DNA of 64,000 nucleotides from Apus apus (lineage: Eukaryota; Chordata; Aves; Apodiformes; Apodidae), in assembly GCF_020740795.1 (NCBI RefSeq), contig NC_067290.1, forward strand, positions 12,444,001 through 12,508,000. The letters run 5' to 3'. This document shows positions 22,593 through 61,229 of this stretch, one piece after another; the first letter of the stretch is position 1, and each line of letters opens with the position of its first letter. Both the position numbers and the translations under genes were made by a program. Below the pieces are notes generated by a model that saw nothing but the letters and a program-made list of their open reading frames with translations, had not been told where the DNA came from and did no database searches.

Positions 22593-23620
22593 AGGGCTCC
22601 TGCCCGTGGCTGCGCTGCACTCTGGGAGCAGCACCCATGGCTGTGTGGGGCCAGAGGAAGACAGCAGGCTCAGCCCCAGCCCTGCACGAGCCACGTGTCC
22701 CATGCGCTGTGTCATTGTACGTGTCACCCTTCCCTTGCACTGAGTACCGTGACACGTCCCTTGTCCCCTGCACTGATGAGCCCTGGTGAACATCCCCCCA
22801 CTCCCTTGAACTGAGCTGTAGTGCACATCCCCTGTGTCCCCTGCCCTGAGCCCTGGTGAACACCCCCTCATCTCTTGCACCAAGCCCTGGTGCACATCCC
22901 CTGTCCCCTGCCCTGAGCCACTGAGCCGCATGTCCCCCCAGCCCTTGCAGCGAGCCATGGGGCAGGTGTCCGGTGTCACCTGCACCGAGCCATGGTGCAC
23001 ATTCCCCCCATCCCCTGCAGGGAGCCCTGGCCCATCTCTGCCTGTCCCTTGCACCAAGCCGTGGTCCAAACCTCCCTGGCCCCTGCACAGACGCAGCTCA
23101 TCTCTCCCGCCCCGCCCCGAGCCACAGTGGATGTCCCCCCAGCCCTCGCACTGCAGCCCCCGGCCCTTCACCTGAGCCATGCTGCACGTGCCCCATCCCC
23201 TGCCCCAGCCGCGGTGCCAGGCCCCTCTCCCTCTCCCCAAGCTGGGCTCCACACCCCAACTCCCTCTTGCCGAGCTCCCCAAGTCCCGCCTGGCTCGCAC
23301 GGCTCCAGCTGCACCTCCCGCTCCCTCCACGCCCAGCCCTGAGCTGGCACACGCTGTCCTCGCCCCTGGCACCCACCTGCCACCCTCGCCCTATTGCCCG
23401 CCCCGCTCCCCTGCTGCAGGGCCTTTCACGTCCCCCCCTGTGCCAAGCTCTGCCCCACGTCCCCCTCCCCGGGTCACTGGAGCTCCCCCCGGGCGCTCTG
23501 CAGAGTTTCATGTTTTTCTCCTCATTTTCAGCTCATTTTTTAGTATTTATTATTCCCAGCCTTCCCTCAACTAGCTCCATAGACTTTTAAAACTCTAGAT
23601 TTATGTAGAAACAAGGAACA

Positions 23621-23626
23621 TTTATT
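23621..23626 (-). terminator. RRP9: Possible RRP9 poly(A) signal (AATAAA on minus strand)
   Basis: TTTATT on the + strand gives AATAAA on the minus strand, about 525 bases after the RRP9 stop codon. If used, RRP9 and GRM2 transcripts overlap tail to tail by roughly 300-350 bases. Another minus-strand AATAAA occurs near 23545. Confidence 0.45.
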
Positions 23627-23930
23627 TTTATTTGTAAAATCCAAAACTTCCGAATTTCGGAAGGAATTTTAACAGATAGTAACAGATAAATAACAACAGA
23701 TAACAAAATATTGCTCCCTCCCTTCCCTTGCTGTGCCCAGAGCTTCTCAGTCCTGCCTGGGACACCGGGCATGAGTGGGGACCAACACCCACTGCCCCCC
23801 TGCAGAACCTGCACGGGCTGAGGGTGAGTAACAGGACCCAGGTACTTGAGTCCAAACAAGTTTTTAAGAGTAGATTTTTTTTCTGCCAGCAAATGTGTGG
23901 ATTATTTTTTTTTTTTTTGTAATTTATGTA

Positions 23931-23936
23931 AATAAA
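23931..23936 (+). terminator. GRM2: GRM2 poly(A) signal (AATAAA)
   Basis: Canonical AATAAA followed by a GT/T-rich stretch (gtggtttgggttttg), the usual form of a vertebrate cleavage site. It lies 1.34 kb after the GRM2 stop. Confidence 0.7.
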
Positions 23937-24149
23937 GTGGTTTGGGTTTTGTTTTTTACAAATGGACTCTTCCAGAGCTCAGGTGCAGCCAAATCTGCAG
24001 GAAGGGGGCAGGCCTTGCAGAAGGCAGAGCCACATCACAATTCAGAGCCCAGCAGGGTCCAGGGGGGTCACACGACACCCCCCACTTGTGTCACCAGCTC
24101 CAAGAGCCTGGTGACAGCAGGATGCCGGGCACAGCTGCAGGGCCAGGGG

Positions 24150-27100
24150 CTACAAGGTATCGGTGGCTTCAGGACTGGGAACCGTGGTCCTGCGCTTCAG
24201 GGGGATGATGCAAATGCTGTTCTTGGCTTCTTTGAGCCTCCACCACCGGCCCAGCCTGTAGATAAGAGAGATGGGGGTCACCCTCAGCTAAGCCCCAGAG
24301 GAAGGGGCTGTGCCCCAGGGCAGTACTGGGGAGGGGGAATGGTACCTGTGCTCCTGCCCAAGGCCGGCCACCAGGAAGTCACCAGCTGCTGAGAACTTGA
24401 GGCTGTTGACAAAACCCACCTGGAGGGAACAGAGCAGGGTGAGGGGCTCCTGCAGCCTCCTCCTCTTGCCCAGGGAGAGGAGTCCCCACCAAACCCCACT
24501 CCCAGCCCCGCTCCAACATCCCCAACCTCCCCATCTATACCAAGGGGATGTCCCACAGAGGCTCCAGCTTCCGAAATCCCTCGCCACACTTCCAGAGCTT
24601 CACGCTGCCACTGTGGGAGCCTGGAGCAGAAAGAGAAGGCTGCCATGCACCCTGACCTGTGGAAGGGAGAACCCCAAGCACCCCCCAAGCCGGCTCTGAA
24701 GCTGCTCCACAGACCTGTAGCCAGGAGGTCACTGTTGCGCAGAGGGGCCACTGCCGAGATCCAGTATGGCTGCTGCAGGCCCTGGGCCTCCTGCAGGCCA
24801 TGCGCCTGCCGGGCCAGCGCCAGCGGCTTCTTCTTCGTCAGCCCCCACAGGGCCACAGACCTGCCAGGGAAGGGGGGGTGAAGGGGCTGAGGGGGGCACT
24901 GCCTGCCCACCCCAGGCACTGCTCTAGCCCCGCACTCACCCGTCATCAGCGCCCGACACCATGTGCTCCTCGTTGATGAGCTGGATACAGTCGATGGAGC
25001 CCCTGTGGAGAGAAGGGGCAACTCCTGTCAGTTATGGGTGTGCTTTGGGAATCCTACTTAGGGAACAAAGGATCACTGGGGCATCAGTGTCCTCACAGTG
25101 CCAGCAGGCTCCTGAGGATGCTTGGCACTTTCACATCACTGCCCCAGCCAGACCCACCTGCCCGCAGCCCCCTCTCCCACCCCAGACCTACTGGTGTCCA
25201 CAGAACACAAGCTGTGACTCCTCAGGGATCTTCCAGAGCCGCACGGTGCCATCACGTCCCCCTGATGTCACACAGCACTCCCGGCTCAGGCTGTCCAGCC
25301 CTGTGATGATGTCCTGGTGCCCAAATCTGGAGGTGGAGATGGCAAAGAGCTGCAATGGGCACAGCCCTCGGCCACATGGCCTCCCTCAGGTAGGAAGGGT
25401 CAGTGAGGTCCCCCCCAGCTCTTACAGGGTCTCCATGTATGCGTTCTCCGCCACGTTCCAGACCTTGACACAACGGTCATGGGAGGCACTGTACAGCTGG
25501 TGTGTGCCCTTCTGGAAGGACAGGCCCTGCAGACAGACAGACAGATGGACACAGGGGCAGTGATGAGGGACACCAGGGAGGACAGTGCTGCCTGGCCCCA
25601 CAGGCATCATAGACTATGCCCCTGACTCACCGAAACGGCATCACGGTGCCCCGTGAAGATGTGCAGGCGCTTGCATGTGGCTGCATCCCAGATCATGATC
25701 AGTTTGTTCCTGTCTCCTGTAGCCTGTCAGAACACAGAGGATACTGGAGACCTGCCCTCAGGGACCCGCAGCCCACCCCATGTGCCCCAAGGACCCGTTC
25801 TTGACTCCAGTGGAGGCAGAGGCTGCTTTAAAACAGCAAAGTACACCTGGGCATGAAACACTGCCCCCCAGCTCCCCAAGAGGAGATCACAGAATCACAG
25901 AGCAGTCAGAGTCGGAAGGGACCTATGGAGATCATCTAGTCAAGCCCCCCTGCTAGAGCAAGATCCTCTAGAGCAGACTACACAGGAACATGTCTAGGCA
26001 GGTTCTGAATGCCTCCAGGGATGGAGGCTCCACAGTCTCCTTGGGCAATATTTTCAAGTGCTCTGTTACCCTCAGAGATGCATTCTCCCACCACTTCTCC
26101 ACCCCATGAGCCAGGCTCTCTCCCATACCAGGTACTTGCCATCCGACGAGATGGCCATGCAGAGGACTTGGGACGCGTGCCCCATGTGCCGCTCCTCGGT
26201 GCCCTTCTTCCCCCCTGGCACCACACACAGCCTCTTCCCGCTCTCCACCTCCCCTGTGGGAAATACATTGCTGTCATCCCCTGGGAGACCCCACCACCCT
26301 GGAAAGCACCAAAGAGCCTCCCACAGAGCATGGAACATGTATGTACATGCACATCCCCGGAGGGGCTGGGGACCAGGCACCCACGGTCCTCCTGCTGCGG
26401 GGTCCCTGCAGGGTTCCAGCCACTTATGATCCCAAGGGAACACTTACATTTGATGAGGGAGCCATCTTTGGAAGCAGAAAAGATGAACATGTCATCTGGA
26501 GAGATGACCAGGCAGGTGACCGGCAGCTGGTGTCCCCGCAACACGCGGATGCTGGCTGGATCCGGAGGCTGCACCTGTGGGGAGAGTGGGACATGAGCTT
26601 GGTCACCTCGGTCCATTCCCCAGGCACAGGGGTACCCAAGCACAGCACCCCCCTTCTCCAGGGCGCCATCAGCCAGCATTCCAGGTGGGAGAAGGGCCCT
26701 GGTGCTGAAACCAACATGTCAACTCGGGGTGCCGGCCGTGGCCATGGCCGAGTGTCCCCCAAAGCCGGCACGTACAGCCCCCCAGCACTTACATCTTTGG
26801 CGACCAGGCGCTGCAGCCGCCCCTTCTGCTCGAGCTGGGGAAGAAGCGGGAGGTTCAGCGGAGACGGCGCCCTGCCCGGGGCGGGGCAGCACCCGCCGCC
26901 ACCGGGGCGCCGCGCCCGCGGCTCTGCTCACCACGTCCTCCTTCAGCCGGTCCCCGATCAGATCCACCGGCCCGGCCTCCTCTTCCTCGTCTGCCGCCCG
27001 CTCCTCCTCTGCGGTGAACACCGGGGGTAAGCGCCGGCCCGGGCAGCGGGAGCTGCTGGCAGCGGGGCTGCTGGCCCCGGCGCGGGCCGCGGGCGGCACT

Positions 27101-27549
27101 CACCGTAGCGCCGGAGCTCCTCCAAGTACTGCTTGGCCAGGCGCAGCTTCTTCTCCTGCGGCGTCTCCTCCAGCTCCTCCTCCGCCGTCACCTCCTGCCG
27201 CCGCCGCAGCGCCGGGCTGCGGGGACACGCGTCAGGACCGGCACCGGGCCCCAGCAGCCCGACCCGCACGGCCGCTCCCGGCCGAAGCCTTTACCTTTCC
27301 GGCTCGGACTCGCTGGACACCTCCTCATCTGCCGCCCGCCCGCCCGCCGCCCGCCGCCTTCCCTCGGCGCCCGGGACCTGCACAACACACCGGAATGATC
27401 AACGGCACGGGGCGCAACCTCGGCCGGAGCGATCCCCGGCAAGCAGCTCCTCCCGCCGCCCTGCCCGCCCCCCTCACCGCCGCCCGCGGCCGCCGCCGTC
27501 CCGGAGCCCCGCGCGGGGCCTTGGCCCTACGGCTGCCCGCAGCCGCCAT
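24150..27549 (-). CDS. RRP9: RRP9 / U3-55K, U3 snoRNP WD40 protein
   Basis: RRP9 is a nucleolar WD40 protein that binds the box B/C motif of U3 snoRNA in the SSU processome for 18S rRNA maturation. Exons (minus, 5' to 3'): 27549-27478, 27377-27295, 27216-27104, 27008-26932, 26834-26793, 26574-26448, 26253-26129, 25723-25631, 25526-25426, 25326-25192, 25002-24940, 24860-24715, 24620-24541, 24419-24346, 24255-24150. Phases agree throughout and give 478 aa (human 475). The basic/acidic N-terminus has the EELEETPQEKKLRLAKQYLEEL helix region. A seven-blade propeller follows, with recognisable blades such as RVLRGHQLPVTCLVISPDD, HDRCVKVWNVAEN and GGRDGTVRLWKIPEESQL. The C-terminus RLGRWWRLKEAKNSICIIPL is the family's conserved end. 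The gene is single copy and intact here; only its last exon is echoed in the neighbouring array. Confidence 0.96.
25884..26085 (-). mobile_element. CR1 LINE 3'-end fragment
   Basis: The + strand reads as the reverse complement of a CR1 3' end: an AGAATCACAGA start (the CR1 tail repeat ATTCT), then GGAAGGGACCT, GGAGATCATCTAGTC and a GATGGAGGCTCCACAG block. Only about 200 bp remain and no reverse-transcriptase coding region is present. It sits in the RRP9 intron between the exons at 26253-26129 and 25723-25631, ending about 45 bp from the former. Divergence from the CR1 core as I recall it suggests an old, inactive insertion. Confidence 0.85.
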
Positions 27550-27653
27550 CTTGCCGCACGTGTTGCCCGCCCCGCCCCCGCCGCCCCGGGCACCGCCCCG
27601 GGCACCGCCCCTTCCTGTGCGGGCCCCGCCCCGCGCCCCGCCCCGGGTGCCGC
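27478..27653 (-). promoter_or_regulatory. RRP9: RRP9 CpG promoter with E-box and YY1-type start
   Basis: A CpG-rich block surrounds the start codon. On the minus strand CAAGATGGCGGC overlaps the ATG (27549-27547), a YY1-type element common at housekeeping genes. A perfect E-box CACGTG lies at 27557-27562, in keeping with MYC-responsive ribosome-biogenesis genes. The duplicated array begins abruptly at 27654, so less than about 105 bp of single-copy upstream sequence remains. Confidence 0.6.
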
Positions 27654-28172
27654 GCGCTCTGCACAGGTTCACGTTTTTCTCCTCATTTTCAGCCCCAGGA
27701 AAAGCCACCGAGCGCTTCTCCCTGCCCCCACTTTCACCGTTGCTTTAGTATTTAGTGTTCCCAGTTTTTCTCAACTAGTTCCATAGACTTTTCAAAACTC
27801 TAGATTTGTGTAGAAACAAGGAACTTTCATTTTAATTCGAAACTACAAAACATCTTTTGGGAGAAATGTTAACCAACAGATAACTTTAACCAACAGATAT
27901 CTTTTAACAACAGATAACAATAGATAAAAACAGATAACAATAGATAACAACAGATCGATAACAACAGGTAACAACAGATATCCCTCCCTCCCACAATCCC
28001 TCATCACTTCCCTCCCTCACTGCTTTCCCCATTACCTCCCTCCTTCCTTGCCTCCCTCCTTCTGTTCCTCCCTCCTTCCCTTCCCTTGCTATGCCCTGGG
28101 AGACAGGGCAGCAGTGGGGGCAAACACCCACTGCCTTCCTCGCCCCTGCACAGCCCCGAGGGCAGGAGGCAG
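27654..28172. repeat. Unit 1 left part: diverged GRM2/RRP9 UTR-junction copy with (AACAGAT)n
   Basis: Words shared with the parental junction at 23497-24000 include TTTTTCTCCTCATTTTCAG, CCATAGACTTTT and AAACTCTAGATTT, interrupted by substitutions and indels. A simple repeat of AACAGATA type (about 27883-27980) is longer than its parental counterpart (23670-23705) and yields many GATA-type AGATAA words. A CCCTCC/CCTTCC pyrimidine tract follows (27981-28085). The minus strand carries ATTAAA near 27833, a possible MROH poly(A) signal. Confidence 0.7.
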
Positions 28173-28422
28173 GCCTTGCAGAGGGCAGACCCCCATGTGG
28201 GGGTCAGCAGGGTCCAAGGGGGCACACGACACCCCCCGCTGGTGTCCTGCCAGCTCTAGGAGCCTGGTGGCAGGCAGGGTGCAGGGCACAGCTGCAGGCC
28301 TTGCAGAGGGCAGACCCCCATGCGGGGGTCAGCAGGGTCCAAGGGGGCACACGACACCCCCCGCTAGTGGCCTGCCAGCTCTAGGAGCCTGGTGGCAGGC
28401 AGGGTGCAGGGCACAGCTGCAG
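28173..28422. repeat. 125-bp minisatellite, 2 copies (unit 1)
   Basis: Units start at 28173 and 28298 with GCCTTGCAGAGGGCAGACCC and contain CACACGACACCCCCCGCT. The single-copy counterpart lies in the RRP9 3' UTR at about 24014-24140, so the repeat arose by tandem expansion of RRP9-derived sequence. Confidence 0.85.
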
Positions 28423-28446
28423 GGCCAGGGGCTCCAGAGCCAGGGT

Positions 28447-28540
28447 CTACAATCTGTCGGGGGCTTCAGGGCTGGGGGCTGTGGTCCTGTGCTTCTGGGG
28501 AAATGCTGTTCTTGGCTTGTGTGAGCCTCCACAACCAGCC
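28447..28540 (-). pseudogene. Decayed copy of the RRP9 last exon (unit 1)
   Basis: On the minus strand it reads WLWRLTQAKNSI where RRP9 has RWWRLKEAKNSI, and then loses the ICIIPLKRR region through a small deletion before an aligned TAG at 28447-28449. The AG acceptor of the parent exon is not preserved. It is a non-functional exon fragment lying about 220 bp downstream of the MROH stop in the same orientation, so it would be part of any long MROH 3' UTR. Confidence 0.8.
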
Positions 28541-28699
28541 AAGTGTCACTCTGCCCCTCAGGGACCCTCAAGCAGGGCATGGACTCCGTCTCTGACTTGG
28601 TCTCTCCCAGCCCAGCAGAGCAGCTGGTGCTTCATGGCTGGGCTGAAGCGTGGGCAGGTGTTGCCCTGCGCCTGCTGCTCGCCCCAGGATGGCGGCTGA

Positions 28700-28740
28700 G
28701 GTGTCTTCTTTTCTCTTGGGCTTGGGGAAAAGAAGACACC
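28700..28740. other. 14-bp perfect inverted repeat just after the MROH stop (unit 1)
   Basis: GGTGTCTTCTTTTC (28700-28713) is followed after 13 bases by its exact complement GAAAAGAAGACACC (28727-28740). The nearer arm begins 18 bases after the MROH stop codon (28760-28758), so in the transcript it would form a hairpin at the start of the 3' UTR. The same structure is present in all three units. Confidence 0.7.
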
Positions 28741-28757
28741 CCAGCCTGCAAAGCATC

Positions 28758-31700
28758 CTAGGGTTGGGGCTGCAGGGCTGACTGTGCCCCAGCAGAGTCA
28801 TCAACGCGGTTGGAGTGCCGCACCCTCCTCCATGCCCTCAGCAGTGGCAGTGGGAAGATGGATCTAGACTTTGGCCGCACTGCTTGGAGGACGTGGAGGG
28901 TCTGTAGTGCTAGGGAGGAGACGAGGGCACTGCCATCTTCCTGTGCGCCTTGGAGGACTGTGGAGACAAAGCAGCAGAGGTGAGGTGGCAGCCAGGAGGG
29001 AGCCAAGGGACAGGTAGCTTGGCTGGAGGCTGCTGGTCAGGAATATCCCCCTGCAGAAACAGCCCCCTCCCCATAAGCGTGCTGGGAGGGGAAGCCGGCC
29101 CAGGCTTGGGGGGAGCTCCGTGCCAGGGTCCTTCCTCCTGGCTGCCCTCACTCACCCCCTTTGATGTGCTCCACCTCCTTCTCCTGCATCCGCCGGCCGA
29201 TGAGCCCTGGGGGGACACGATGTGTCAGGGACCCTGCCACCCATCCCGACCTGCTGGGGAGGGCTTACCCCAGCCAGGGTGCAGCATTGGGGAGCCTTGT
29301 GCCAGCCCCACAGCCGAGGGGTGGGGGTGAAGAGGTGCCCTGCGGGTCCTGTGCTGGGACACAGGGACCCCAGGAGAGGGAGGGACCCAGGACCGGTGGC
29401 TCACCAATGACCCGAACAGCCTCACAGCGCAGGAGCTCCTGGGGGCTCTGCAGGTACCCCTGGCACTGGAGCAGGAACTGCTTGATCTTGGTCTTCTTCC
29501 TGGCCAGCTGCAGAGAGGAGAAGAGTGCAGGCCTGGTGCAGAGCTGACCCCGAACCCAGGGCCACCCTTCTGCCCCCCAGCAAGACAGGACAGTCCTGGC
29601 TTCCCGCCGTGTGGCATCAGGATTTGGAGGGAGGAGAGGGCTCCCTGAGGATGCTGGGGTGCCATCAGGGTGGCAGGGTCCCCTTTGGGGCCCCGAGGGT
29701 GAGGACAGCCTGGAGCAGAGCCTGCTCTGGGAGGCTGTGTGCAGCCACGGGGGCACAGCCATCTGTCCCCCCACTGGGCACGGGGCAGGGGGGCTCCCAG
29801 GGGGGTCGGGGCTGTGCTTACCAGGCACCCCCAGATCAGCTGCGCCTGCGCCTGCTCTGCCAGCTGCTCCAGCTGCCCCCATTTCAGGAGCCGTCCAGCG
29901 CTGCGGAGGGCTTCCTGGGCAGCCTGGGGAGCAGCAGAGATGTCACCACCACTGCTGGTGGCACAGGGCCCCGTGTCCCCCCTCTTGGCAGGGCTTGGAG
30001 CCTGTCCCGGCCCATGCAGGGAAGATGTACAAGCTGGGGCTTGGTGCTGCCACCAGGTTCAGCACCCCAGGGAAGAGAAGGGTGGTCATGTCCTCTGGCT
30101 GGAAGCCTGCTGGGGCTTCAGTGTTTTGACCTTGGTAGCCCCAGACTGCTACAGAGCCATAGCCCAGTCTCTGGGGCTGCAGGGACCCTGCCAGGGGCTG
30201 TGTAGGGGGAGCTGGCTGGGAAAGGGACCCACTTCCTCATCCATCTATCCGGGCAGCAGGAGGAGAAAGGCAGCAGCTGGCAGGGAAGGGGAGCTCTGCC
30301 TGGTCCGAGGGCCTTGGCAAGCTGTACGCCCGGTGACACACGTTGGAAGGGTTTGCTGTTGGCACTGCCCTGCCTAAAGGGCCACTCGGGCAGAGAATCC
30401 CACCTTGGTCACAGTCTTCTCCTGGTCAAGCAGGTGAAAGGTCAGGGGGATCAGGCTGTTCCACACCTCCTTCTTAATTTTTTTCCTTTCACCTTTCATC
30501 AACCCCATCAGATGACCAAAGAGTTGAATGGAGCCCCTCCGCACGGTGTCCAGGTCCTGAGGGAAGAGGGGAGGAGGATCTCAGCCCCAACACCACGGTG
30601 AGCAGGGGGCTGATGTGGAGATGGATGTCTCCCAGATGGCCTCAGCCAGCCCTGCTCCAAAAGGGAGTGGGCTGCTGCGTGCTGGGGTCCCTGGGGCTGG
30701 GGTCCGGAGAGGGAGACCCTGAGGAGGGCTGGGGGTTGGTCACTGGTGGGCTCAGCATGACCGCAGCCACCCTGCCGCCAGTGTCCCCGCGTGGCAGGGG
30801 GACCAAGTCGGGGCCCGTTCATGCGGGGTGTTTGGAGCCACGGAGGGCAGGGACGGGGTCTGGGGGCCGTGGGGCGAAGCAGAGGGGGGGGAGGCAAACG
30901 GATGAACCCAGTGAGGGGGGCACAGGGCTCTCTCCCAGCCTCACGTCATCAAAGAAGGTCGAGAGCTTCGCTGCGACGTCCAGGGCGGTCAGGCTGCCCT
31001 CCTCCCCCTCCAGCAGCGGCAGCATGGCATCCAGCACGGGCAGGGCCGCGGCACGGGTGTCACTGCCGCCACCCTGCAGCAGCTCCACAATGCGTGGCAG
31101 CAGGGTCAGGGTTTTCTTTGCCTGTGTGAGACACGACGCCTCCTTTGTGTCAAGCAGCCCCCGACGGCAGGGCTGAAACCCCCCTCCACCAGCCCCGGCC
31201 TCACGGGGCTGACAGGGCAAGGTCCCAGCAGACATGGCTCCCCAGCAGGGCCATGGGAAGAGCGAGGCCCGGGGGGGCAGGCAGCACTGGCTCCCTGCAG
31301 CCCCTCGGCTGTCCCCATCCCCACCAGGGGCCCAGGGCAAGCTGGTGGCCACTGGCACTGCCTGGGCAGCTGCCCCACCTGCCAGCAGCCCCCAGCGAGG
31401 CCGCTGCGTTTCAGCCCGGGGCTCAGCACCCCACGGCCTGGCTCTGCAGGCCCCGTGCTCCGGGCTGGGGGCTTTGGGCTGGCAGCAGGAGCCTGTTCCT
31501 CTCCGCACTGCTGCCTCCCTCCTGGCACGGCACAGCCGTGGGGCGGAGGGCCACGGGGGCAGGAGAGCTGGCAGCAGCCGGCACAGCTCCCAGGGCCCAG
31601 CAAAGCCCCAGCCACCGCGGCACCCGCCACCCACAGCTGCACCCTGGGCTGTGTCCCAGCTGTCCCCTGCTCACTGTGTCAGGCCTTCTAGTGAGCTTCA

Positions 31701-39425: not shown

Positions 39426-39449
39426 GGCCAGGGGCTCCAGAGCCAGGGT

Positions 39450-39543
39450 CTACAATCTGTCGGGGGCTTCAGGGCTGGGGGCTGTGGTCCTGTGCTTCTG
39501 GGGAAATGCTGTTCTTGGCTTGTGTGAGCCTCCACAACCAGCC
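39450..39543 (-). pseudogene. Decayed copy of the RRP9 last exon (unit 2)
   Basis: Same sequence and same defects as the fragment in unit 1, so decay happened before the array was amplified. Confidence 0.8.
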
Positions 39544-39743: not shown

Positions 39744-39760
39744 CCAGCCTGCAAAGCATC

Positions 39761-48947: not shown

Positions 48948-49537
48948 TGTCCCCTGCCCTGAGCCACTGAGCCGCATGTCCCCCCAGCCCTTGCAGCGAG
49001 CCATGGGGCAGGTGTCCGGTGTCACCTGCACCGAGCCATGGTGCACATTCCCCCCATCCCCTGCAGGGAGCCCTGGCCCATCTCTGCCTGTCCCTTGCAC
49101 CAAGCCGTGGTCCAAACCTCCCTGGCCCCTGCACAGACGCAGCTCATCTCTCCCGCCCCGCCCCGAGCCACAGTGGATGTCCCCCCAGCCCTCGCACTGC
49201 AGCCCCCGGCCCTTCACCTGAGCCACGCTGCACGTGCCCCATCCCCTGCCCCAGCCGCGGTGCCAGGCCCCTCTCCCTCTCCCCAAGCTGGGCTCCACAC
49301 CCCAACTCCCTCTTGCCGAGCTCCCCAAGTCCCGCCTGGCTCGCACGGCTCCAGCTGCACCTCCCGCTCCCTCCACGCCCAGCCCTGAGCTGGCACACGC
49401 TGTCCTCGCCCCTGGCACCCACCTGCCACCCTCGCCCTATTGCCCGCCCCGCTCCCCTGCTGCAGGGCCTTTCACGTCCCCCCTGTGCCAAGCTCTGCCC
49501 CACGTCCCCCTCCCCGGGCCACTGGAGCTCCCCCCGG
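48948..49537 (+). repeat. Near-identical copy of GRM2 3' UTR segment (unit 2)
   Basis: Same segment as 22902-23496. It shares the longer C run before GGGCGCTCTGC with the parental GRM2 sequence, unlike the copies in units 1 and 3, and has a private T-to-C change (GCCACGCTGC near 49224). Confidence 0.9.
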
Positions 49538-50052
49538 GCGCTCTGCACAGGTTCACGTTTTTCTCCTCATTTTCAGCCCCAGGAAAAGCCACCGAGCGCT
49601 TCTCCCTGCCCCCACTTTCACCGTTGCTTTAGTATTTAGTGTTCCCAGTTTTTCTCAACTAGTTCCATAGACTTTTCAAAACTCTAGATTTGTGTAGAAA
49701 CAAGGAACTTTCATTTTAATTCGAAACTACAAAACATCTTTTGGGAGAAATGTTAACCAACAGATAACTTTAACCAACAGATATCTTTTAACAACAGATA
49801 ACAATAGATAAAAACAGATAACAATAGATAACAACAGATCGATAACAACAGGTAACAACAGATATCCCTCCCACAATCCCTCATCACTTCCCTCCCTCAC
49901 TGCTTTCCCCATTACCTCCCTCCTTCCTTGCCTCCCTCCTTCTGTTCCTCCCTCCTTCCCTTCCCTTGCTATGCCCTGGGAGACAGGGCAGCAGTGGGGG
50001 CAAACACCCACTGCCTTCCTCGCCCCTGCACAGCCCCGAGGGCAGGAGGCAG
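49538..50052. repeat. Unit 3 left part: diverged GRM2/RRP9 UTR-junction copy with (AACAGAT)n
   Basis: As in unit 1 but one CCCT repeat shorter after AACAGATAT near 49865. Confidence 0.7.
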
Positions 50053-50427
50053 GCCTTGCAGAGGGCAGACCCCCATGCGGGGGTCAGCAGGGTCCAAGGG
50101 GGCACACGACACCCCCCGCTGGTGTCCTGCCAGCTCTAGGAGCCTGGTGGCAGGCAGGGTGCAGGGCACAGCTGCAGGCCTTGCAGAGGGCAGACCCCCA
50201 TGCGGGGGTCAGCAGGGTCCAAGGGGGCACACGACACCCCCCGCTGGTGTCCTGCCAGCTCTAGGAGCCTGGTGGCAGGCAGGGTGCAGGGCACAGCTGC
50301 AGGCCTTGCAGAGGGCAGACCCCCATGTGGGGGTCAGCAGGGTCCAAGGGGGCACACGACACCCCCCGCTAGTGGCCTGCCAGCTCTAGGAGCCTGGTGG
50401 CAGGCAGGGTGCAGGGCACAGCTGCAG
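50053..50427. repeat. 125-bp minisatellite, 3 copies (unit 3)
   Basis: Units start at 50053, 50178 and 50303. The middle unit carries the CTGGTGTCC variant at a place where the second unit in array unit 2 has CTAGTGGCC, so repeats have been shuffled between units. Confidence 0.88.
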
Positions 50428-50451
50428 GGCCAGGGGCTCCAGAGCCAGGGT

Positions 50452-50545
50452 CTACAATCTGTCGGGGGCTTCAGGGCTGGGGGCTGTGGTCCTGTGCTTC
50501 TGGGGAAATGCTGTTCTTGGCTTGTGTGAGCCTCCACAACCAGCC
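50452..50545 (-). pseudogene. Decayed copy of the RRP9 last exon (unit 3)
   Basis: Identical by eye to the fragments in units 1 and 2. Confidence 0.8.
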
Positions 50546-50704
50546 AAGTGTCACTCTGCCCCTCAGGGACCCTCAAGCAGGGCATGGACTCCGTCTCTGA
50601 CTTGGTCTCTCCCAGCCCAGCAGAGCAGCTGGTGCTTCATGGCTGGGCTGAAGCGTGGGCAGGTGTTGCCCTGCGCCTGCTGCTCGCCCCAGGATGGCGG
50701 CTGA

Positions 50705-50745
50705 GGTGTCTTCTTTTCTCTTGGGCTTGGGGAAAAGAAGACACC
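50705..50745. other. 14-bp perfect inverted repeat after the MROH stop (unit 3)
   Basis: Same stem and loop as in units 1 and 2. Confidence 0.7.
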
Positions 50746-50762
50746 CCAGCCTGCAAAGCATC

Positions 50763-53700
50763 CTAGGGTTGGGGCTGCAGGGCTGACTGTGCCCCAGCAG
50801 AGTCATCAACGCGGTTGGAGTGCCGCACCCTCCTCCATGCCCTCAGCAGTGGCAGTGGGAAGATGGATCTAGACTTTGGCCGCACTGCTTGGAGGACGTG
50901 GAGGGTCTGTAGTGCTAGGGAGGAGACGAGGGCACTGCCATCTTCCTGTGCGCCTTGGAGGACTGTGGAGACAAAGCAGCAGAGGTGAGGTGGCAGCCAG
51001 GAGGGAGCCAAGGGACAGGTAGCTTGGCTGGAGGCTGCTGGTCAGGAATATCCCCCTGCAGAAACAGCCCCCTCCCCATAAGCGTGCTGGGAGGGGAAGC
51101 CGGCCCGGGGCTTGGGGGGAGCTCCGTGCCAGGGTCCTTCCTCCTGGCTGCCCTCACTCACCCCCTTTGATGTGCTCCACCTCCTTCTCCTGCATCCGCC
51201 GGCCGATGAGCCCTGGGGGGACACGATGTGTCAGGGACCCTGCCACCCATCCCGACCTGCTGGGGAGGGCTTACCCCAGCCAGGGTGCAGCATTGGGGAG
51301 CCTTGTGCCAGCCCCACAGCCGAGGGGTGGGGGTGAAGAGGTGCCCTGCGGGTCCTGTGCTGGGACACAGGGACCCCAGGAGAGGGAGGGACCCAGGACC
51401 GGTGGCTCACCAATGACCCGAACAGCCTCACAGCGCAGGAGCTCCTGGGGGCTCTGCAGGTACCCCTGGCACTGGAGCAGGAACTGCTTGATCTTGGTCT
51501 TCTTCCTGGCCAGCTGCAGAGAGGAGAAGAGTGCAGGCCTGGTGCAGAGCTGACCCCGAACCCAGGGCCACCCTTCTGCCCCCCAGCAAGACAGGACAGT
51601 CCCTGGCTTCCCGCCGTGTGGCATCAGGATTTGGAGGGAGGAGAGGGCTCCCTGAGGATGCTGGGGTGCCATCAGGGTGGCAGGGTCCCCTTTGGGGCCC
51701 CGAGGGTGAGGACAGCCTGGAGCAGAGCCTGCTCTGGGAGGCTGTGTGCAGCCACGGGGGCACAGCCCTCTGTCCCCCCACTGGGCACGGGGCAGGGGGG
51801 CTCCCAGGGGGGTCGGGGCTGTGCTTACCAGGCACCCCCAGATCAGCTGCGCCTGCGCCTGCTCTGCCAGCTGCTCCAGCTGCCCCCATTTCAGGAGCCG
51901 TCCAGCGCTGCGGAGGGCTTCCTGGGCGGCCTGGGGAGCAGCAGAGATGTCACCACCACTGCTGGTGGCACAGGGCCCCGTGTCCCCCCTCTTGGCAGGG
52001 CTTGGAGCCTGTCCCAGCCCATGCAGGGAAGATGTACAAGCTGGGGCTTGATGCTGCCACCAGGTTCAGCACCCCAGGGAAGAGAAGGGTGGTCATGTCC
52101 TCTGGCTGGAAGCCTGCTGGGGCTTCAGTGTTTTGACCTTGGTAGCCCCAGACTGCTACAGAGCCATAGCCCAGTCTCTGGGGCTGCAGGGACCCTGCCA
52201 GGGGCTGTGTAGGGGGAGCTGGCTGGGAAAGGGACCCACTTCCTCATCCATCTATCCGGGCAGCAGGAGGAGAAAGGCAGCAGCTGGCAGGGAAGGGGAG
52301 CTCTGCCTGGTCCGAGGGCCTTGGCAAGCTGTACACCCAGTGACACACGTTGGAAGGGTTTGCTGTTGGCACTGCCCTGCCTAAAGGGCCACTCGGGCAG
52401 AGAATCCCACCTTGGTCACAGTCTTCTCCTGGTCAAGCAGGTGAAAGGTCAGGGGGATCAGGCTGTTCCACACCTCCTTCTTAATTTTTTTCCTTTCACC
52501 TTTCATCAACCCCATCAGATGACCAAAGAGTTGAATGGAGCCCCTCCGCACGGTGTCCAGGTCCTGAGGGAAGAGGGGAGGAGGATCTCAGCCCCAACAC
52601 CACGGTGAGCAGGGGGCTGATGTGGAGATGGATGTCTCCCAGATGGCCTCAGCCAGCCCTGCTCCAAAAGGGAGTGGGCTGCTGCGTGCTGGGGTCCCTG
52701 GGGCTGGGGTCCGGAGAGGGAGACCCTGAGGAGGGCTGGGGGTTGCTCACTGGTGGGCTCAGCATGACCGCAGCCACCCTGCCGCCAGTGTCCCCGCGTG
52801 GCAGGGGGACCAAGTCGGGGCCCGTTCATGCGGGGTGTTTGGAGCCACGGAGGGCAGGGACGGGGTCTGGGGGCCGTGGGGCGAAGCAGAGGGGGGGGAG
52901 GCAAACGGATGAACCCAGTGAGGGGGGCACAGGGCTCTCTCCCAGCCTCACGTCATCAAAGAAGGTCCAGAGCTTCGCTGCGACGTCCAGGGCGGTCAGG
53001 CTGCCCTCCTCCCCCTCCAGCAGCGGCAGCATGGCATCCAGCACGGGCAGGGCCGCGGCACGGGTGTCACTGCCGCCACCCTGCAGCAGCTCCACAATGC
53101 GTGGCAGCAGGGTCAGGGTTTTCTTTGCCTGTGTGAGACACGACGCCTCCTTTGTGTCAAGCAGCCCCCGACGGCAGGGCTTGAAACCCCCCTCCACCAG
53201 CCCCGGCCTCACGGGGCTGACAGGGCAAGGTCCCAGCAGACATGGCTCCCCAGCAGGGCCATGGGAAGAGCGAGGCCCGGGGGGGCAGGCAGCACTGGCT
53301 CCCTGCAGCCCCTCGGCTGTCCCCATCCCCACCGGGGCCCAGGGCAAGCTGGTGGCCACTGGCACTGCCTGGGCAGCTGCCCCACCTGCCAGCAGCCCCC
53401 AGCGAGGCCGCTGCGTTTCAGCCCGGGGCTCAGCACCCCACGGCCTGGCTCTGCAGGCCCCGTGCTCCGGGCTGGGGGCTTTGGGCTGGCAGCAGGAGCC
53501 TGTTCCTCTCCGCACTGCTGCCTCCCTCCTGGCACGGCACAGCCGTGGGGCGGAGGGCCACGGGGGCAGGAGAGCTGGCAGCAGCCGGCACAGCTCCCAG
53601 GGCCCAGCAAAGCCCCAGCCACCGCGGCACCCGCCACCCACAGCTGCACCCTGGGCTGTGTCCCAGCTGTCCCCTGCTCACTGTGTCAGGCCTTCTAGTG

Positions 53701-56700
53701 AGCTTCAGGATGCCCCCGAGCACCAGGCTGGGCATCCCCGGGCACTGACTCTCCAGATATGCCGCAAAGATCTTCAGGGCAAAGTCCAGAACAAAATGAA
53801 GTCTGGGGCAGTCCAGCATCTGAAACACAGGCAGCAGGGGCTGGCTCCAGCCATCAGCCCAGGGAGAGGATGCCGGGGAGAGACCAAGCCCAGATGGGGG
53901 TAGCAGGGATTGTGGAGAGCCCCCGTGTCCCACAGCACATGGGTTGCTTGCCTGCTCCTCCATGGTCCCAAGCACAGCCCACCCACTGCCTCAGCTCCCC
54001 CCACAGCAGTGGGCACAGGAGAGCTGAGCGTTGGAGGGGCTTGGAGCAGTGTCGTCAGGCTCACCTCGACGAGGAAGACCATGGCGGTCATCTCCCAGGG
54101 GGGGCTGTCCACAGTGAGGAGCTCTACCAGAGAGCAGAAGAAGATGATGCACAAATCTCTGGAGTATTCTGCTATCTCCCTGGCAGGAGGAAGGAGGCAC
54201 CGTCAGGCCTGAGCCAGCTGGGCACTCGTCTTTGGGGTTTGCAGCAGTCTGGACATCACCAGGCTGCAGCACTTGGATCTCCGCGTGCCATCAGCACCCA
54301 GGGAGGGAGTGGTGCCCAGTCCCTGAGGTGTGAGGAGAAGGGGCTCTCACCTGGCGATGACCTGTATCCCTGTGAGGCGGGTCTGGGCGCTGAGCAGGGC
54401 ATCCCAGCCCCCCTGCTCCTCGATGGCCTCCACATGTCTCTCACCCCCCATCTCGCAGAGTAACAGTCTCATAGACTGCACTGCAGCCCTGCACAGGGAG
54501 AAGTGCTCAGCTCCCACCAGGACCTCTGGCTTGGCTCTGGGTGGCTTGCAGGGATGAAAGGATAAGGATGGAGTACCTGGTGTAATAGAGCTGATCCTCC
54601 TGGAGCTCCATACAGATTTCCTCCTCGTGTAGTGCCAGCTCCGTGGTGAAAGCCACTTGAAAAAGCAGCCCCAGGAAAAGCTTGGGGAGAATCTTCCTCT
54701 TCAACTCGTACTCGCCGACGGCCTGCAGAGCGTCTTCCCGCAGGAGGATCTCCCTTATTGCCTCGGTTGCCTGCAGAAGCCACCCAGACATTGAGATATC
54801 CCTGGTGCCCCTAGGGAGGTCAAGGCTTTGGGTGCGACCAGAAGGGGTGTGGGAGCCTGGAACCACTGAGAACAGCCATAGAGGTCAGAGAGGCCTCATC
54901 AAGCAACTCACAGCCAGGGAGAGGAAGAGTGGGTCATCTTTGGTGGAGGTCTTGGGCAGCGAGTAGTTGAGAAGCTTGCGGAGCAGGTCCCGCAGCACCT
55001 TCTCTGCCAGTTGGGGTTCAGGGAGCATCACCCTACACATGATCACTGAGCCACTGTGGGGAGACAAGGGTTCTGTCAGAGGGGACATCCAAGAGGACGG
55101 CCAGGCTGAAGTCTCTCAGGAGAGTCTTGGGTCGCCTTTCCGTGTGAGAGGAGCCCCAAAGACTGTTGGGCCCTGCACCTGGCGTACGTCGGGGCGCACT
55201 GCAGCAGGCTGGTCACCACCTCGCTGACGTATTTCAGGGTCATCCTCTTGAGAGTGTTCTCCAGGTTTCTGAGGGCTGACACTGACGTGATGGAGGGCCC
55301 GTTTCTATAGATGGCCCACACGATGTTCCGCACCTAGAGGGGAGACATGGGTGGGAATGGGAATGTCAGCAGGGGGAGCGCAACCGCGTCCCCAGCTCCC
55401 GCTGGGAGCCGCTCCCATTCCCGTTGCGCTACGATGGCTTGAGATGGCGTCAGTGCTGGCCAGGCAGGGAGCCAGGGGAGGAACTGTCCCCCAGTGGGGT
55501 GGAATTCAGCTGTGCCACCCATGGGCTACTCACATGCTCCTCCTGGAAGACTGTTTTCTCCACAAGGATGTTGACCATGTAGACAGCCATCTGGATGCTG
55601 TCTGGGTCGGAGTCTTCCATGTTTGTGATGGCCATGAGGACGAGATCTGCCCTGTCAGAAGGCTGCAGGTATTGCATCAGTATCTGTGGGATGAAAGAGA
55701 AGGGAGATGTGTCACCTAGAGAGAAGCTTGCCGGAGGCCCTTGCCTAGCCCTTGCTCAGGAGCAGCACGGGTCCCCACCATCCCTGTGCATCGGGTGTCC
55801 CTGCGCTCAGGCTGAGCCCCCTGACCAGCAGCCAAAGGCACTTCTTACCGAGAACATGTTGCAGACATGTTTGACTTTCAGGCTGCGCCAGGCCTGCAAC
55901 ATTTCCCATTGACACTGGAGCTGCAGCATCTCTTCGTCACCCCGCCCGGAACACCTGCCTGAGGAGGAGCAAAACCGGGGTGCTCAGAGGGAGAGTGAGG
56001 AGCTGGAGGTGCAGTCTGAGGACACCAGGCAGAAAAGTTGCTGGCAAAGAAAGAGGGCAGCCAGGCAGGGGAGGAGCAGATCCCCAGCGAGGGTCCAGGG
56101 CTCTTGCGAGCAGGGGCGAGGGGAAGTGGCTGTTCAGCCTGCAGGCAGGCAGCTTGGATCAGGTTCTCCCTCGCTAAGGAGGGTGGTCCCTGGCTGCCCG
56201 TTTCTAGGGGGACCCAGCCCGACACGGTGTCTCTTACTTCTCTGCTGCAGGAGGAAGACGTGCAGCTGAGACAGGGCTTCTGCGGCCTGCTGGCGGATCA
56301 GCTGGTTGCTGCAGACGCAGCAGAAGGTGAGCTGCCCCACCAGCATCCCCAGCACGTCAAACCGGTGTGTTTCGGAGCGCTCGTGCCCGAAGTGCACGGC
56401 TTGTGCAAAGCAGGGACAGACCTGGGGAGAGAGAGGCAGGGCAGGCACAGGGTGAGCCCGGGCACACAGTGAGCCCTGGCTGCTCCCAGAGCAGCAGCTC
56501 AGGGCAGGGCTGCCAGACCCAGGCTCCTGCCTGTGGCCGTGACAGCCCTGGGAGAGAGCCCGGACAAGACAGGGCAAAGAGCCCTGCTCCCAGCCTCCTG
56601 CTGGCTGGGTGCCCAGCTTCCCTGGGAGGTGCTGGGGGCTCAGGGGCACCGGGGCTGCCCAGGCCAGGAGCTCAGTACCTGCAGCCCAGGGTAGGTGGTG

Positions 56701-59178
56701 ATGAAGCCGATCACCTGGGCAATCCGTGCCACGGCCCTCTCCCGCACCTCTTCTGCCTGGGACGTGGTGAAGTGCAGCAGGAGCTGGGAGGAGAAAAGCT
56801 GGTGATGTGGCCTGGAGGTGACAGGCCACAGCATGGCAGGGCCAGGCTCGCTGCAGGGCAGTGCCTGGGGTGGGCCACGTGTCCTCCTTGCCCCCTCGCA
56901 GCCACCTGCTGCGGCCAGGCAGGTCACTGCATCCTGCTCCTGCAGCTGCCTCTGCCGCCTTCCACTCCCTCCTCCCCCCAGAACATCCCTCAGCTCCCCA
57001 GCCAAGGCTCTGGGCTGGCCACCTCCCTCGGGATCTGTGGTAGGGGCCTCTGGGATATGGCCCAGAAGGGGCTCGGGCAGCAGTCAGAAGGCAGGGGCCT
57101 GGTGGGGGGAAGGAGGGACATTCTCTGTCCCCCTCCTCACACCAGGAGCTGGGGGGGGGGGGGGGCGGGCAGGCACTGCTCAAGCCAGGGCTCACTGCCT
57201 GTGAGGACCCCTGTGCCAAGGACAGACCTGAAAGATGTTCTGCAGATCCTGGGCAGCAGCATCACCACCGCTGCGTATCAGCTCCTGCAGCATTCTGTCC
57301 ATCACAGCCAGGGTCTGCAAAGGGGACAGAGGCTTGGGAGCAGTCCTTGAAGCCTCAGCTGTGACCCTGCGGTGCCCAGGAAGGGGCCTTGGGCCGAGGG
57401 AGCTCTTTGCGGCTCCCCCCATCACGGTTTCAAGCTGGTCCAGCAATTAAACAAATGACAGATGCTCTCTCTTAATCCCTCTCCCCCCCAGGAAAGGGAA
57501 AGGAAAGAGGTGGACAAGCCCACGGCATACCTTGGAGTAAGCCTGGGCGCCCTCCTGCTCCTCCAGCCGAGGCACGCAGAAGACGCTGGAGAAGCAGGTG
57601 TAGAGGAGGCTGGTCAGCCTCTCCCGCGGCAGGAGCCCCACTCTGCTGCAGGGACAGAGAATTGCTCTTGGGAGCCGGCACGGAGGAGGCAGAGCCCAGG
57701 GTTGGAGATCTGGACTGACTCCACGCCGTGGGTGACCTCTCAAGCCCCGTGACACTGCCAGTGATGTCCGGAGGGAAACCCTGGTGGCACCCCCTGGCCC
57801 TGCTGTCTCTCTCCCTCTTGGGTCAAGGACTGGGGATGCCCTCGCCTGGGACCTGTGCTCCTGGGGCCACTGGGCACCAGGGAGGCCCAACTGGGGGCTG
57901 GGGCAGGTACCTCAGCGAGGTGATGGCCAGCATGACTTGGCATTGAACTGCGGTGTCCAGGTGGTCAGTGGGCTCATCGTTCAGCAGTCCCTGGGAAGCA
58001 CAGCAGGGTGGGACAGGTCAGGACAGGGCAGTCTCCCTTGCCCAGCAAGGGCCTGCGGGGCTGGCAGAGCCCACGTGCTCCCACCCTGGCCCCCCCTCCC
58101 CACTCAGCACCCAGAGGTCCCAAGCTCCGTGGCAGGAAGGGCTGTGCCCATCACAGAGCCACAGGCTGGCCGAGGGACCTGCAGACGGTGTTGATTCCAA
58201 GTCCTGGCTCCAGCCGGGCCACCCAGGTGTCTCTGGAGCACCTCCGAGGATGGAGCGCTGGAGCAGCCTTCATTGGTGCCCTGCCCTAACCGGCCAAGCC
58301 CTCTCCTGCCCCCAGGGCTGTGCTGCTGCCCCTGCTCCTGCCGCAGCCTTCCTGCTCACCCCCTCACCTCGATGGTCTCCAGCACCTCCTCCTGGCAGAA
58401 GGAAAACAACTGCCACTCAATGGAGTGCCCACTGATGCTGGAGCAGGTGGTGCAGATGTTGTCCAGAAACTCCAGCTTCTCATCCTTTTGCTGCCAGCCG
58501 GAGAGGGGACAGATGGACAGACGGTGTCAAGGGGGAGAGAGAGTCGGGGGAGCCCAGCTCAGCACCTTCTGAGCATGGGATAGGAGCAGAAAGACCGGCC
58601 AGGTGACACAGGCACAGCCTCGTGGAAGTGGCCACGGATACCTCTGGTCTCTTCCCAAAGATGAAGACTCCGATGGTGTTCAGGAGGAAGAGAACTGACT
58701 GAAGGACTCCGAGCAGAGCTAGGGGGCAGGCAAGAGGAGAAACTTGAGCCGTCTGCCCAGCTCCTGGAGATGTCAGCAGCCCTGGCTCAAGGCTGGGAAG
58801 CTGCTGTCCCGTATGCACGCCAGGGATGAGGGTGCAGTGCTGGCGGGCAGCACAGGGAGGGGGCCCTGGCACGCCCAGGGATGCGCTGGCACCAGGGGCA
58901 GGGCGGGTCCCTGTCCAGGGATACAGCTGTGATGGGGCTGTGCCCCTGGGTCCCTGGCCGCTGCTCCCTGGGAGTCCTGGTGCCAGCCTGGCTGGAAGGT
59001 GTGAGCCTGGGACAGGGCAGGGCGGGCAGCCCCTGCCCCCCGTGCCCACACACTCACCCGCCCGCAGTGCCTGGACCTGGGTCTCCATGCAGGGCTCGGG
59101 CTCGGAGCTGGCGGCCGGGGGATCCCCGGGCTGCATCGAAACCTCCTTGGGCTGCCCGACGGGTTGATTGTCCTCCAT
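50763..59178 (-). CDS. MROH (maestro heat-like repeat) family protein, copy 3
   Basis: The 22 exons have the same lengths as in copies 1 and 2, shifted by 22005-22010 bp from copy 1, with shift changes only in introns. Predicted product 939 aa, intact. It shares Pro6, Val7 and Ser467 with copy 2, keeps Lys831 and Leu847 like copy 1, and has its own Ala211 (TSQAEEV), Asp360 (MEDSDPDS) and Trp732 (AAKLWTFFDD). First coding exon 59178-59058, last exon 50962-50763. Family assignment as for copy 1. Confidence 0.85.
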
Positions 59179-59564
59179 CCTGTGGGAGGCAGGACGTGAA
59201 GGGTGAGGGAGACCCCTCGCCTGCCGGGCTGCCCTGCCATGGGATGGTGAGGCAGGGGTGGCCAAACTCAGGGGGCTTTTTGCTCCCACCCTGTCCCAAC
59301 ACTGTCCTCTTAGACACTACGGGGGCAAAGCTGGGTGACACAGGGTGCATCCAAAGCACCTCTCAAGCCCCTGATTGTCCCTTCCCCAGGTCCTCTCTGG
59401 CTGGCCCAGAGACCCACGGACCCCTCCTTGTCCCGGGGGGACGGGACTGACTCCCTCCTCCTCCTCCTCCCGCTATGGGGCTGAGGCTCATCTGTCCCGG
59501 GAGCATCTCCCCGTGCTGCGGGGACCCGTCTGTCCCCTGTGCCGGCTCCTGGTGCTGCCCCCAC

Positions 59565-59952
59565 CTGGAAGCCAGGGCGTGCCGGGGTGCAGCCTCCAAC
59601 CTCTCAGCGCTTCGAGCCTCTTTTCTCATAATAAACCAGTCCCGGGACAAAGGATTCCCTCTCTCTCGAGCTGCGAGCCAGAGAGCGCCCTGCCGAGCGC
59701 TCATCCGCGGGCACCGCAACCGTTGAGTGCCCCGAACCTGTTGCCAGGACGCACGTTACAATGCCCCGAAGGTTCCAAAGAACGTTCCAAGGAACGGGAC
59801 GTTCCAAGGAACGTTCCAACGCTGGAACCAGTTCTTGGGGGGGGCCTCGGAACCATGGAACGGGGGAGGGTTCCATCCCCCTCTGCGGGGTGCGCGGACC
59901 CGCTGTTCAAAGTGCGGGCCGTACCGGGGGAGCGGGAGCCCCGCCCGGGCAG
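59565..59952 (-). promoter_or_regulatory. MROH copy 3 promoter and non-coding first exon
   Basis: Same donor and same half-site cluster (59771-59834) as in the other copies. Confidence 0.5.
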
Positions 59953-60541
59953 TGTCCCCTGCCCTGAGCCACTGAGCCGCATGTCCCCCCAGCCCTTGCA
60001 GCGAGCCATGGGGCAGGTGTCCGGTGTCACCTGCACCGAGCCATGGTGCACATTCCCCCCATCCCCTGCAGGGAGCCCTGGCCCATCTCTGCCTGTCCCT
60101 TGCACCAAGCCGTGGTCCAAACCTCCCTGGCCCCTGCACAGACGCAGCTCATCTCTCCCGCCCCGCCCCGAGCCACAGTGGATGTCCCCCCAGCCCTCGC
60201 ACTGCAGCCCCCGGCCCTTCACCTGAGCCATGCTGCACGTGCCCCATCCCCTGCCCCAGCCGCGGTGCCAGGCCCCTCTCCCTCTCCCCAAGCTGGGCTC
60301 CACACCCCAACTCCCTCTTGCCGAGCTCCCCAAGTCCCGCCTGGCTCGCACGGCTCCAGCTGCACCTCCCGCTCCCTCCACGCCCAGCCCTGAGCTGGCA
60401 CACGCTGTCCTCGCCCCTGGCACCCACCTGCCACCCTCGCCCTATTGCCCGCCCCGCTCCCCTGCTGCAGGGCCTTTCACGTCCCCCCTGTGCCAAGCTC
60501 TGCCCCACGTCCCCCTCCCCGGGCCACTGGAGCTCCCCCGG
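59953..60541 (+). repeat. Near-identical copy of GRM2 3' UTR segment (unit 3)
   Basis: Same segment as 22902-23496, with the shorter C run before GGGCGCTCTGC seen in unit 1. Confidence 0.9.
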
Positions 60542-61229
60542 GCGCTCTGCACAGGTTCACGTTTTTCTCCTCATTTTCAGCCCCAGGAAAAGCCACCGAG
60601 CGCTTCTCCCTGCCCCCACTTTCACCGTTGCTTTAGTATTTAGTGTTCCCAGTTTTTCTCAACTAGTTCCATAGACTTTTCAAAACTCTAGATTTGTGTA
60701 GAAACAAGGAACTTTCATTTTAATTCGAAACTACAAAACATCTTTTGGGAGAAATGTTAACCAACAGATAACTTTAACCAACAGATATCTTTTAACAACA
60801 GATAACAATAGATAAAAACAGATAACAATAGATAACAACAGATCGATAACAACAGGTAACAACAGATATCCCTCCCTCCCACAATCCCTCATCACTTCCC
60901 TCCCTCACTGCTTTCCCCATTACCTCCCTCCTTCCTTGCCTCCCTCCTTCTGTTCCTCCCTCCTTCCCTTCCCTTGCTATGCCCTGGGAGACAGGGCAGC
61001 AGTGGGGGCAAACACCCACTGCCTTCCTCGCCCCTGCACAGCCCCGAGGGCAGGAGGCAGGCCTTGCAGAGGGCAGACCCCCATGTGGGGGTCAGCAGGG
61101 TCCAAGGGGGCACACGACACCCCCCGCTGGTGTCCTGCCAGCTCTAGGAGCCTGGTGGCAGGCAGGGTGCAGGGGACAGCTGCAGGCCTTGCAGAGGGCA
61201 GACCCCCATGCGGGGGTCAGCAGGGTCCA
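60542..61229. repeat. Truncated fourth array unit
   Basis: The first 688 bp of a unit: UTR-junction copy, AACAGATA repeat, pyrimidine tract, one full 125-bp repeat (61061) and 44 bp of a second (from 61186). It breaks off after CAGCAGGGTCCA. No RRP9 exon fragment or MROH sequence follows. Confidence 0.88.

Follow-up and report, generated by a model that had tools for sequence, protein, structure and literature searches.

Segmental duplications are long, high-identity copies of non-transposon DNA, defined as segments of at least 1 kb that occur at more than one site with at least 90% identity. Core duplicons are recognized among such sequences by a shared core gene, by confinement to a single chromosome, by copy-number variation within the species and by positive selection, the last in half or more of the human families. 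LCR16a/NPIP, as two reports describe it (PMC7419210, PMC6920530), is a fast-evolving gene with a kept open reading frame in blocks that carry flanking passengers to new sites, part in tandem and part dispersed. Exon evolution is accelerated in primate segmental duplications according to a genome-wide comparison of coding exons with flanking introns from human and macaque reads (PMC3906575). In birds, interchromosomal duplications with a subtelomeric bias have been reported (PMC13431229), and the main text of that report contains neither MROH nor maestro. A chicken paper names a gene MROH2BL23 (PMC12192435), implying that the chicken annotation contains several MROH2B-like genes, and a penguin paper places MROH2B among spermatogenesis genes (PMC11371425). 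Our literature search, mostly outside subscription journals, returned no paper joining MROH with GRM2 or RRP9 sequence among the matches listed and none naming both MROH and RRP9.

We have found an array of MROH genes joined to pieces of GRM2 and RRP9 in a 64,000-nucleotide stretch of the Apus apus genome (the window; C10:12444001-12508000 of the searched assembly, which comprises 1.10 Gb in 110 contigs). We consider it likely that the array belongs to an MROH-centred segmental duplication (a duplicon) with the history proposed below. The segmental-duplication definition applies, in that the 11-kb units are ~99.67% identical and copies at another site reach 99% over 7 kb. As in the accounts of LCR16a/NPIP, a fast-evolving gene with a kept frame sits in blocks that are part tandem and part dispersed and carry flanking passengers to new sites. 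Unlike LCR16a/NPIP, the gene is another one and the genome is that of a bird, pairwise dN/dS is below 1, and some MROH places lack the module of GRM2- and RRP9-derived sequence. With regard to core duplicons, the module is found near 14 of the 20 MROH places among the matches listed, not all; dN/dS is 0.60-0.90 over ten copy pairs with dS raised too; and copies occur on C10, C4, C36, C3, C21, C28, C15 and other contigs instead of one chromosome. We therefore describe the MROH system as core-duplicon-like and do not count it among the core duplicons.

From left to right, the window contains GRM2 on the plus strand, segment A, segment B, the RRP9 body on the minus strand, the MROH array up to 61229 and NAA80 on the plus strand (62868-63587; E 1.2e-65). 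The 3' coding exons of GRM2 occupy 19952-22592, with the final exons and the TGA stop (22590-22592) read by eye; residues 68-424 of the frame at 19952-21226 match metabotropic glutamate receptor 2 (E 5.3e-203). Segment A (22902-23532, plus strand) is the GRM2 3' flank and a probable 3' UTR segment that recurs in the array. Segment B (23489-24255, minus strand) is the parental RRP9 3' UTR and last exon, of which 24153-24254 matches U3 snoRNA-interacting protein 2 (E 1e-8). The 3' UTR designations of A and B are putative, being drawn from position and from poly(A) signals, namely a plus-strand AATAAA at 23931 and minus-strand AATAAA at 23621 and 23627. RRP9 continues on the minus strand through approximately 24256-27600, delimited by the body match and a GC-rich 5' end (27300-27650; GC 0.81, CpG o/e 1.02). 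A degenerate minisatellite at 22731-23150 lies downstream of the GRM2 stop, and the A of one class of dispersed copies (class i, below) starts within it.

Three tandem units of 11.0 kb each (28169-39219, 39172-50221 and 50174-61229; ~99.67% identity by self-BLAST) make up the array. Each contains a minus-strand MROH, a 630-bp stretch from the GRM2 3' flank (A) and a diverged RRP9 piece (B'), in the parental order. This composition, claimed in the first-pass annotation, was confirmed by self-BLAST and by a more sensitive scan, and the claimed order and orientation hold as well, in collinear matches to 22902-23702 and 24008-24254. The module series needs amendment at both ends, and MROH has to be placed on the minus strand of the unit. 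Copy 0, the first module (27650-28543, minus strand, from the sensitive self-scan), is only the last 44 bp of A followed by B', the diverged RRP9 3' UTR and last exon. It is followed by MROH copy 1 with its 5' flank (28544-37942, minus strand), A of unit 1 (37943-38571, plus strand) and B' of unit 1 (38528-39546, minus strand), the last with three 125-bp tandem pieces. MROH copy 2 (39547-48947, minus strand; C10:12483547-12492947), A (48948-49577, plus strand) and B' (49534-50548, minus strand) form unit 2. MROH copy 3 (50549-59952, minus strand; C10:12494549-12503952) precedes the terminal module, in which A (59953-60581, plus strand) is complete and B' (60538-61229, minus strand) is cut at 61229 with no MROH after it. 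MROH copies 2 and 3 were delimited by genome match, the A segments and the terminal B' by self-BLAST, and B' of units 1 and 2 by self-BLAST with the sensitive scan. Sequence matches identify an older B-type fragment on the minus strand abutting the right end (61228-61282), which is 82% identical to 23619-23657 over 61228-61266 and 87% identical to B' of two C4 loci (L006, L029).

Segment A is 99.05% identical to its three full-length array copies by self-BLAST, and B' is 75-80% identical to parental B. With the more sensitive scan, 22902-23702 continues collinearly into 37943-38777 as a single match (89.6%), and parental 24008-24254 matches 28294-28543, 39297-39546 and 50299-50548 at ~75-76%. 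Homology of B' ends at 24254/24255, the boundary of the RRP9 last exon with its intron (splice site read by eye); in copy 0, 28543 corresponds to parental 24254. A 125-bp tandem repeat derived from RRP9 3' sequence is present in B' (28169-28423, 39047-39426, 50049-50428); its copy number varies among modules and is larger in L008.

The ~99.67% identity of the units is what a false duplication would give, and an assembly artefact was considered as a source of the array. We regard this as very improbable, because the units differ pairwise at 15-19 of ~7055 noncoding sites and at 4-7 coding sites and because related clusters at 80-90% identity occur on other contigs.

When 22902-24255 was searched against its own genome, at least 76 matches were returned. 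Module matches (A, B or an RRP9 remnant) were grouped by hand into 21 loci; only the best candidates were scored, making both module and MROH place counts lower bounds. Among the matches listed, MROH lies within 20 kb of 14 of the 21 counted module places and a module lies within 20 kb of 14 of the 20 MROH places. Three further module places (C28:2193010, C28:2338663 and C65:243255) were left out of the 21 and have no MROH within 20 kb, which would make the former count 14 of 24. The counted module loci without MROH are C10:14.843, where MROH 5' flank sequence is present, C10:3.09, C65:207822, where an MROH fragment lies 37.7 kb off, C105, C74, C97 and C93. MROH loci without a module within 20 kb are C3:156.57, C19, C22, C30, C21:8.383 (45 kb) and C65:169251 (37.7 kb). 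Copies of the MROH unit elsewhere are most similar at C10:10.53 (two copies, 95-99% identity), followed by C4:13.19 (two copies), C4:4.91, C36:52.6 and C3:61.3 (main pieces 83-90%) and by copies on C21, C28, C15, C64 and C82 (class ii, below; main pieces 77-80%). Tandem clusters occur at three sites, C10:12.47, C10:10.53 and C4:13.19.

The breadth of this distribution, with 21 counted places on many contigs and 7 of them lacking MROH within 20 kb, is the argument for regarding A-B as a dispersed repeat family unrelated to GRM2 and RRP9 that was inserted by chance between them and beside MROH. Such an origin is improbable, since B contains the last coding exon of RRP9, class-ii copies run on into RRP9 introns and upstream exons, and one copy has a GRM2 exon region beside A-B'. 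That copy, at C10:14.841-14.846 Mb (L015/L027), is a succession of matches to 61749-62088 (the right flank of the array, on the NAA80 side), 8 bp, GRM2 21361-22541, A-B' and 37347-37726 (MROH 5' flank). The presence of GRM2 21361-22541 beside A-B' is consistent with A belonging next to GRM2, and the end-to-start mosaic is what would be expected had the whole locus been duplicated in tandem or as a circle. Proximity of 14 of 21 places to MROH, together with the RRP9 coding sequence in many, argues for dispersed duplication of this block and not for an unrelated repeat. Wide dispersal had been named in the first-pass annotation as grounds for giving up the GRM2/RRP9 origin; the module is literally dispersed, yet its RRP9 origin stands, as the copies carry RRP9 exons and introns.

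Two classes of copies were distinguished. Class i (C10:10.53-10.55, C4:4.91, C4:13.19, C36:52.6 and C3:61.3) has the layout MROH 5' flank, A, B'. Alignments span the junction of MROH with A (37942/37943; parental 22902) at six loci (L002, L006, L007, L011, L018, L031) that lie on C10, C4, C36 and C3; at C4:13.19 the junction itself falls outside the aligned loci. Class ii is found on C28, C21, C15, C64, C65, C82 and C105, and its A begins at ~22848 in the copies on C28, C21, C15, C65 and C105. At six places (C28 twice, C21, C15, C64 and C82), RRP9 24139/24184-24748 is joined to 26758-27320 with introns included; the join of 24748 to 26758 is identical in all six places with this longer remnant, and identity including introns is 81-82% over 24139/24184-24748. 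The MROH 3' flank adjoins the longer remnant in five of the six, and the sixth, at C28:2193010 (L012), has no MROH flank in the sequence examined. A block at C28:2.29-2.31 Mb consists of A-B, ~6 kb with no window match, an RRP9 remnant, a full-length MROH and, past it, A-B in inverted orientation. The class-ii copies of C28, C21 and C15 are found no more than ~25-65 kb from contig ends, and this contig-end, multi-contig placement matches the subtelomeric bias as given in PMC13431229, unlike the class-i copies, which are interstitial, the window included.

The class-ii introns indicate copying at the DNA level that covered more than two 3' ends, and introns in all six remnants with MROH beside five suggest that a larger block was copied and that RRP9 was later eroded. 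The claim that convergent 3' ends were copied and became fixed in the unit therefore stands for the fixed unit, given the junction of MROH with A common to six loci, and is too narrow as to what was copied. Arrival through RNA, as retrocopies of GRM2 or RRP9 transcripts, would explain why unit homology stops at the exon boundary 24255. It fails to account for two convergent genes joined as in the genome, for the RRP9 introns kept in class ii, and for upstream RRP9 exons having no match in the units in the sensitive scan; we hold it to be extremely improbable. A processed retrocopy was rejected, the absence of introns expected of one being contradicted by class ii.

Under the segmental duplication that we favor, the duplicated block would have held the GRM2 3' flank (A), RRP9 and, next to it on the same strand, MROH, as the class-ii copies suggest. 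In the proposed order, RRP9 would then have been deleted from the copies; the observed deletions leave class ii with a remnant that lacks one internal stretch and class i with the last exon. Sharing one junction of MROH and A, the class-i unit A-B'-MROH would have spread to C10, C4, C36 and C3, where it is now placed. Tandem amplification, presumably by unequal crossing-over, would have produced the copies at C10:12.47, C10:10.53 and C4:13.19. MROH may be regarded as the payload, with frames that stay open and exons that diverge faster than introns, and the GRM2 and RRP9 pieces as passengers that mark descent and may give homology for recombination. We infer the ancestral MROH-RRP9 adjacency, the direction of the first copy and the timing from one genome.

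Segment A also carries a later event. Over 22902-23488, parental A differs from unit 1 at 1/585 sites and two 1-bp gaps, from unit 2 at 2/586 and from unit 3 at 1/585; over 23533-23702, parental B differs from unit 1 at 44/169, and the change-over lies near 23503. The same discordance is present in the C10:10.54 copy (L002; A 3/584, B' 31/252). Between the unit and a C4 copy (L006), A differs at 28/578 and B' at 44/251. The ratio of A to B divergence is ~0.3 for the unit with L006 and with L007, 0.7 for the unit with the class-ii copy L020, and 0.007 for the parent with unit 1. In all pairs compared, B is the faster-evolving of the two, and this rate difference accounts for part of the discordance and not for a 150-fold one. 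Strong constraint on A was ruled out, as A of the unit and of class ii (L020) differ at 117/558. Parental A falls within class i and the neighboring B does not. From these discordant divergences, a recent exchange of A between the GRM2 flank and the C10 units is probable, with gene conversion as the likeliest mechanism. It is this exchange that the identity of 99% in A reflects, and the identity does not date the copying.

Without conversion, class-i A might have been copied late from GRM2 and joined to an older B', and each of the six pairs of unit and class-i copy indeed has A closer than B'. A late copy is rather unlikely, given that the MROH-A-B' order and its junction are common to C10, C4 and C36 copies, and that parental A is ~5% from the A of C4 and C36 and nearly identical to that of unit 1, which a single late copy cannot give together. 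Returning to exchange, the parental base at 23474 is unlike all 12 other aligned sequences; the change therefore arose in the parental copy and does not fix the direction. Transfer from unit to parent would be the simpler direction, as it needs one event.

The MROH family domain HEAT_Maestro (PF21047) was found by Pfam search above the curated cut-off in two of 8 MROH-region open reading frames and below it in a third, the other five having no match; all three window copies pass in a further search. From the reading frames, 18 coding-exon cores (~800 codons, between 36477 and 28761 in copy 1) were picked by eye, and this set probably lacks 5' exons that lie upstream of 36477. These cores are free of frameshifts and stops in units 1-3 and in single copies at C4:4.91, C4:13.20, C36 and C28 (five loci), the C36 copy lacking ~35 of the ~800 codons. 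The loci underlying these exon observations are window 28761-36477, units 2 and 3, and L033, L035, L036 and L037.

Exons of the unit diverge faster than its introns. Against C4:4.91, 401/2397 exon sites and 304/4743 intron sites differ (Fisher 8.7e-41); the counts are 393/2373 and 264/4731 against C4:13.20, 401/2298 and 262/4135 against C36, and 471/2397 and 718/4555 against class ii on C28 (p 5e-5), with these Fisher tests treating sites as independent. Exon divergence is 2.6-3 times that of introns against the copies on C4 and C36, a strong contrast, which for C28 is modest. Internal exons exceed their flanking introns in 15/16 cases for C4:4.91, 15/16 for C4:13.20, 15/15 for C36 and 12/16 for C28. 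This resembles the excess of coding-exon over intron difference in primate segmental duplications as PMC3906575 presents it, and differs in that, between the unit and C4:4.91, 15 of the 16 internal exons within a single gene are concerned and the excess extends to synonymous sites.

In five-copy trees, the unit and C28 are separated from C4:4.91, C4:13.20 and C36 by a branch of 0.068 on exons and 0.009 on introns, and the C28 branch is 0.173 on exons and introns alike, which makes the exon excess a class-i feature. NG86 estimates of dN/dS are 0.73-0.90 for the four unit pairs and 0.60-0.84 for the remaining six. Relative to intron divergence, dN is 2.6-3.0x and dS 3.2-3.8x between the unit and three class-i copies, and dN/K(intron) is 1.18 against class ii. 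Since dS is raised too, positive selection alone does not explain the excess. Homogenized introns with protected exons would explain it, and the excess suggests either that MROH proteins are pressed to differ or that exons escape homogenization. CpG hypermutability was rejected as the cause, the excess remaining when CpG sites are removed (unit-C4 exon 0.135, intron 0.047). A search for a paralogue that donated exons, using 1.4 kb of the C4:4.91 copy, found none closer than the C4, C3 and C36 sisters (85-86%) among 21 candidates listed. Between the unit and C28, no 20-codon window gave purifying selection by codon position at p 0.003, and of the reading frames with 30 codons or more, two reached a nominal p <0.05, in line with chance.

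The passengers provide a barcode, comprising the MROH-A junction (37942/37943), the class-ii join (24748/26758) and the class-i stop (24255), that orders MROH copies by descent without recourse to the fast-evolving exons. As a bird counterpart to primate core duplicons, the system bears on the question of whether a rapidly evolving core gene is a requirement for such duplications. We tentatively suggest, as a reading somewhat short of probable, a bird core duplicon in which MROH blocks seeded at GRM2-RRP9 spread between chromosomes, conversion homogenizes introns and A, and diversifying selection separates exons, in a process that overwrites the GRM2 3' flank and has flanked RRP9 with near-identical direct repeats at a spacing of 15 kb. 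Because the A repeats at 22902 and 37943 lie on either side of RRP9, RRP9 would be lost together with one MROH copy if the two repeats crossed over.

Use of the RRP9 poly(A) signal by MROH was also considered and was dropped: among 13 sequences, ATTAAA stands at the aligned place only in units 1-3 and L008. In the array modules, this ATTAAA is at 27831, 38709, 49715 and 60719. AATAAA takes its place in the parental copy and in class ii (L020, L026), and L002, L006, L007, L010, L015 and L029 have neither hexamer there. Clustered GGAACGTTCC-like palindromes were seen by eye at 37720-37860, in the MROH 5' flank directly ahead of A; matches of the C28 copy to this flank break off at 37706 and resume at 37828. 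Within RRP9, a ~200-bp element at 25874-26077, possibly a transposon, has 83-85% matches on C1, C4, C5 and C33 and a 74% match on C64.
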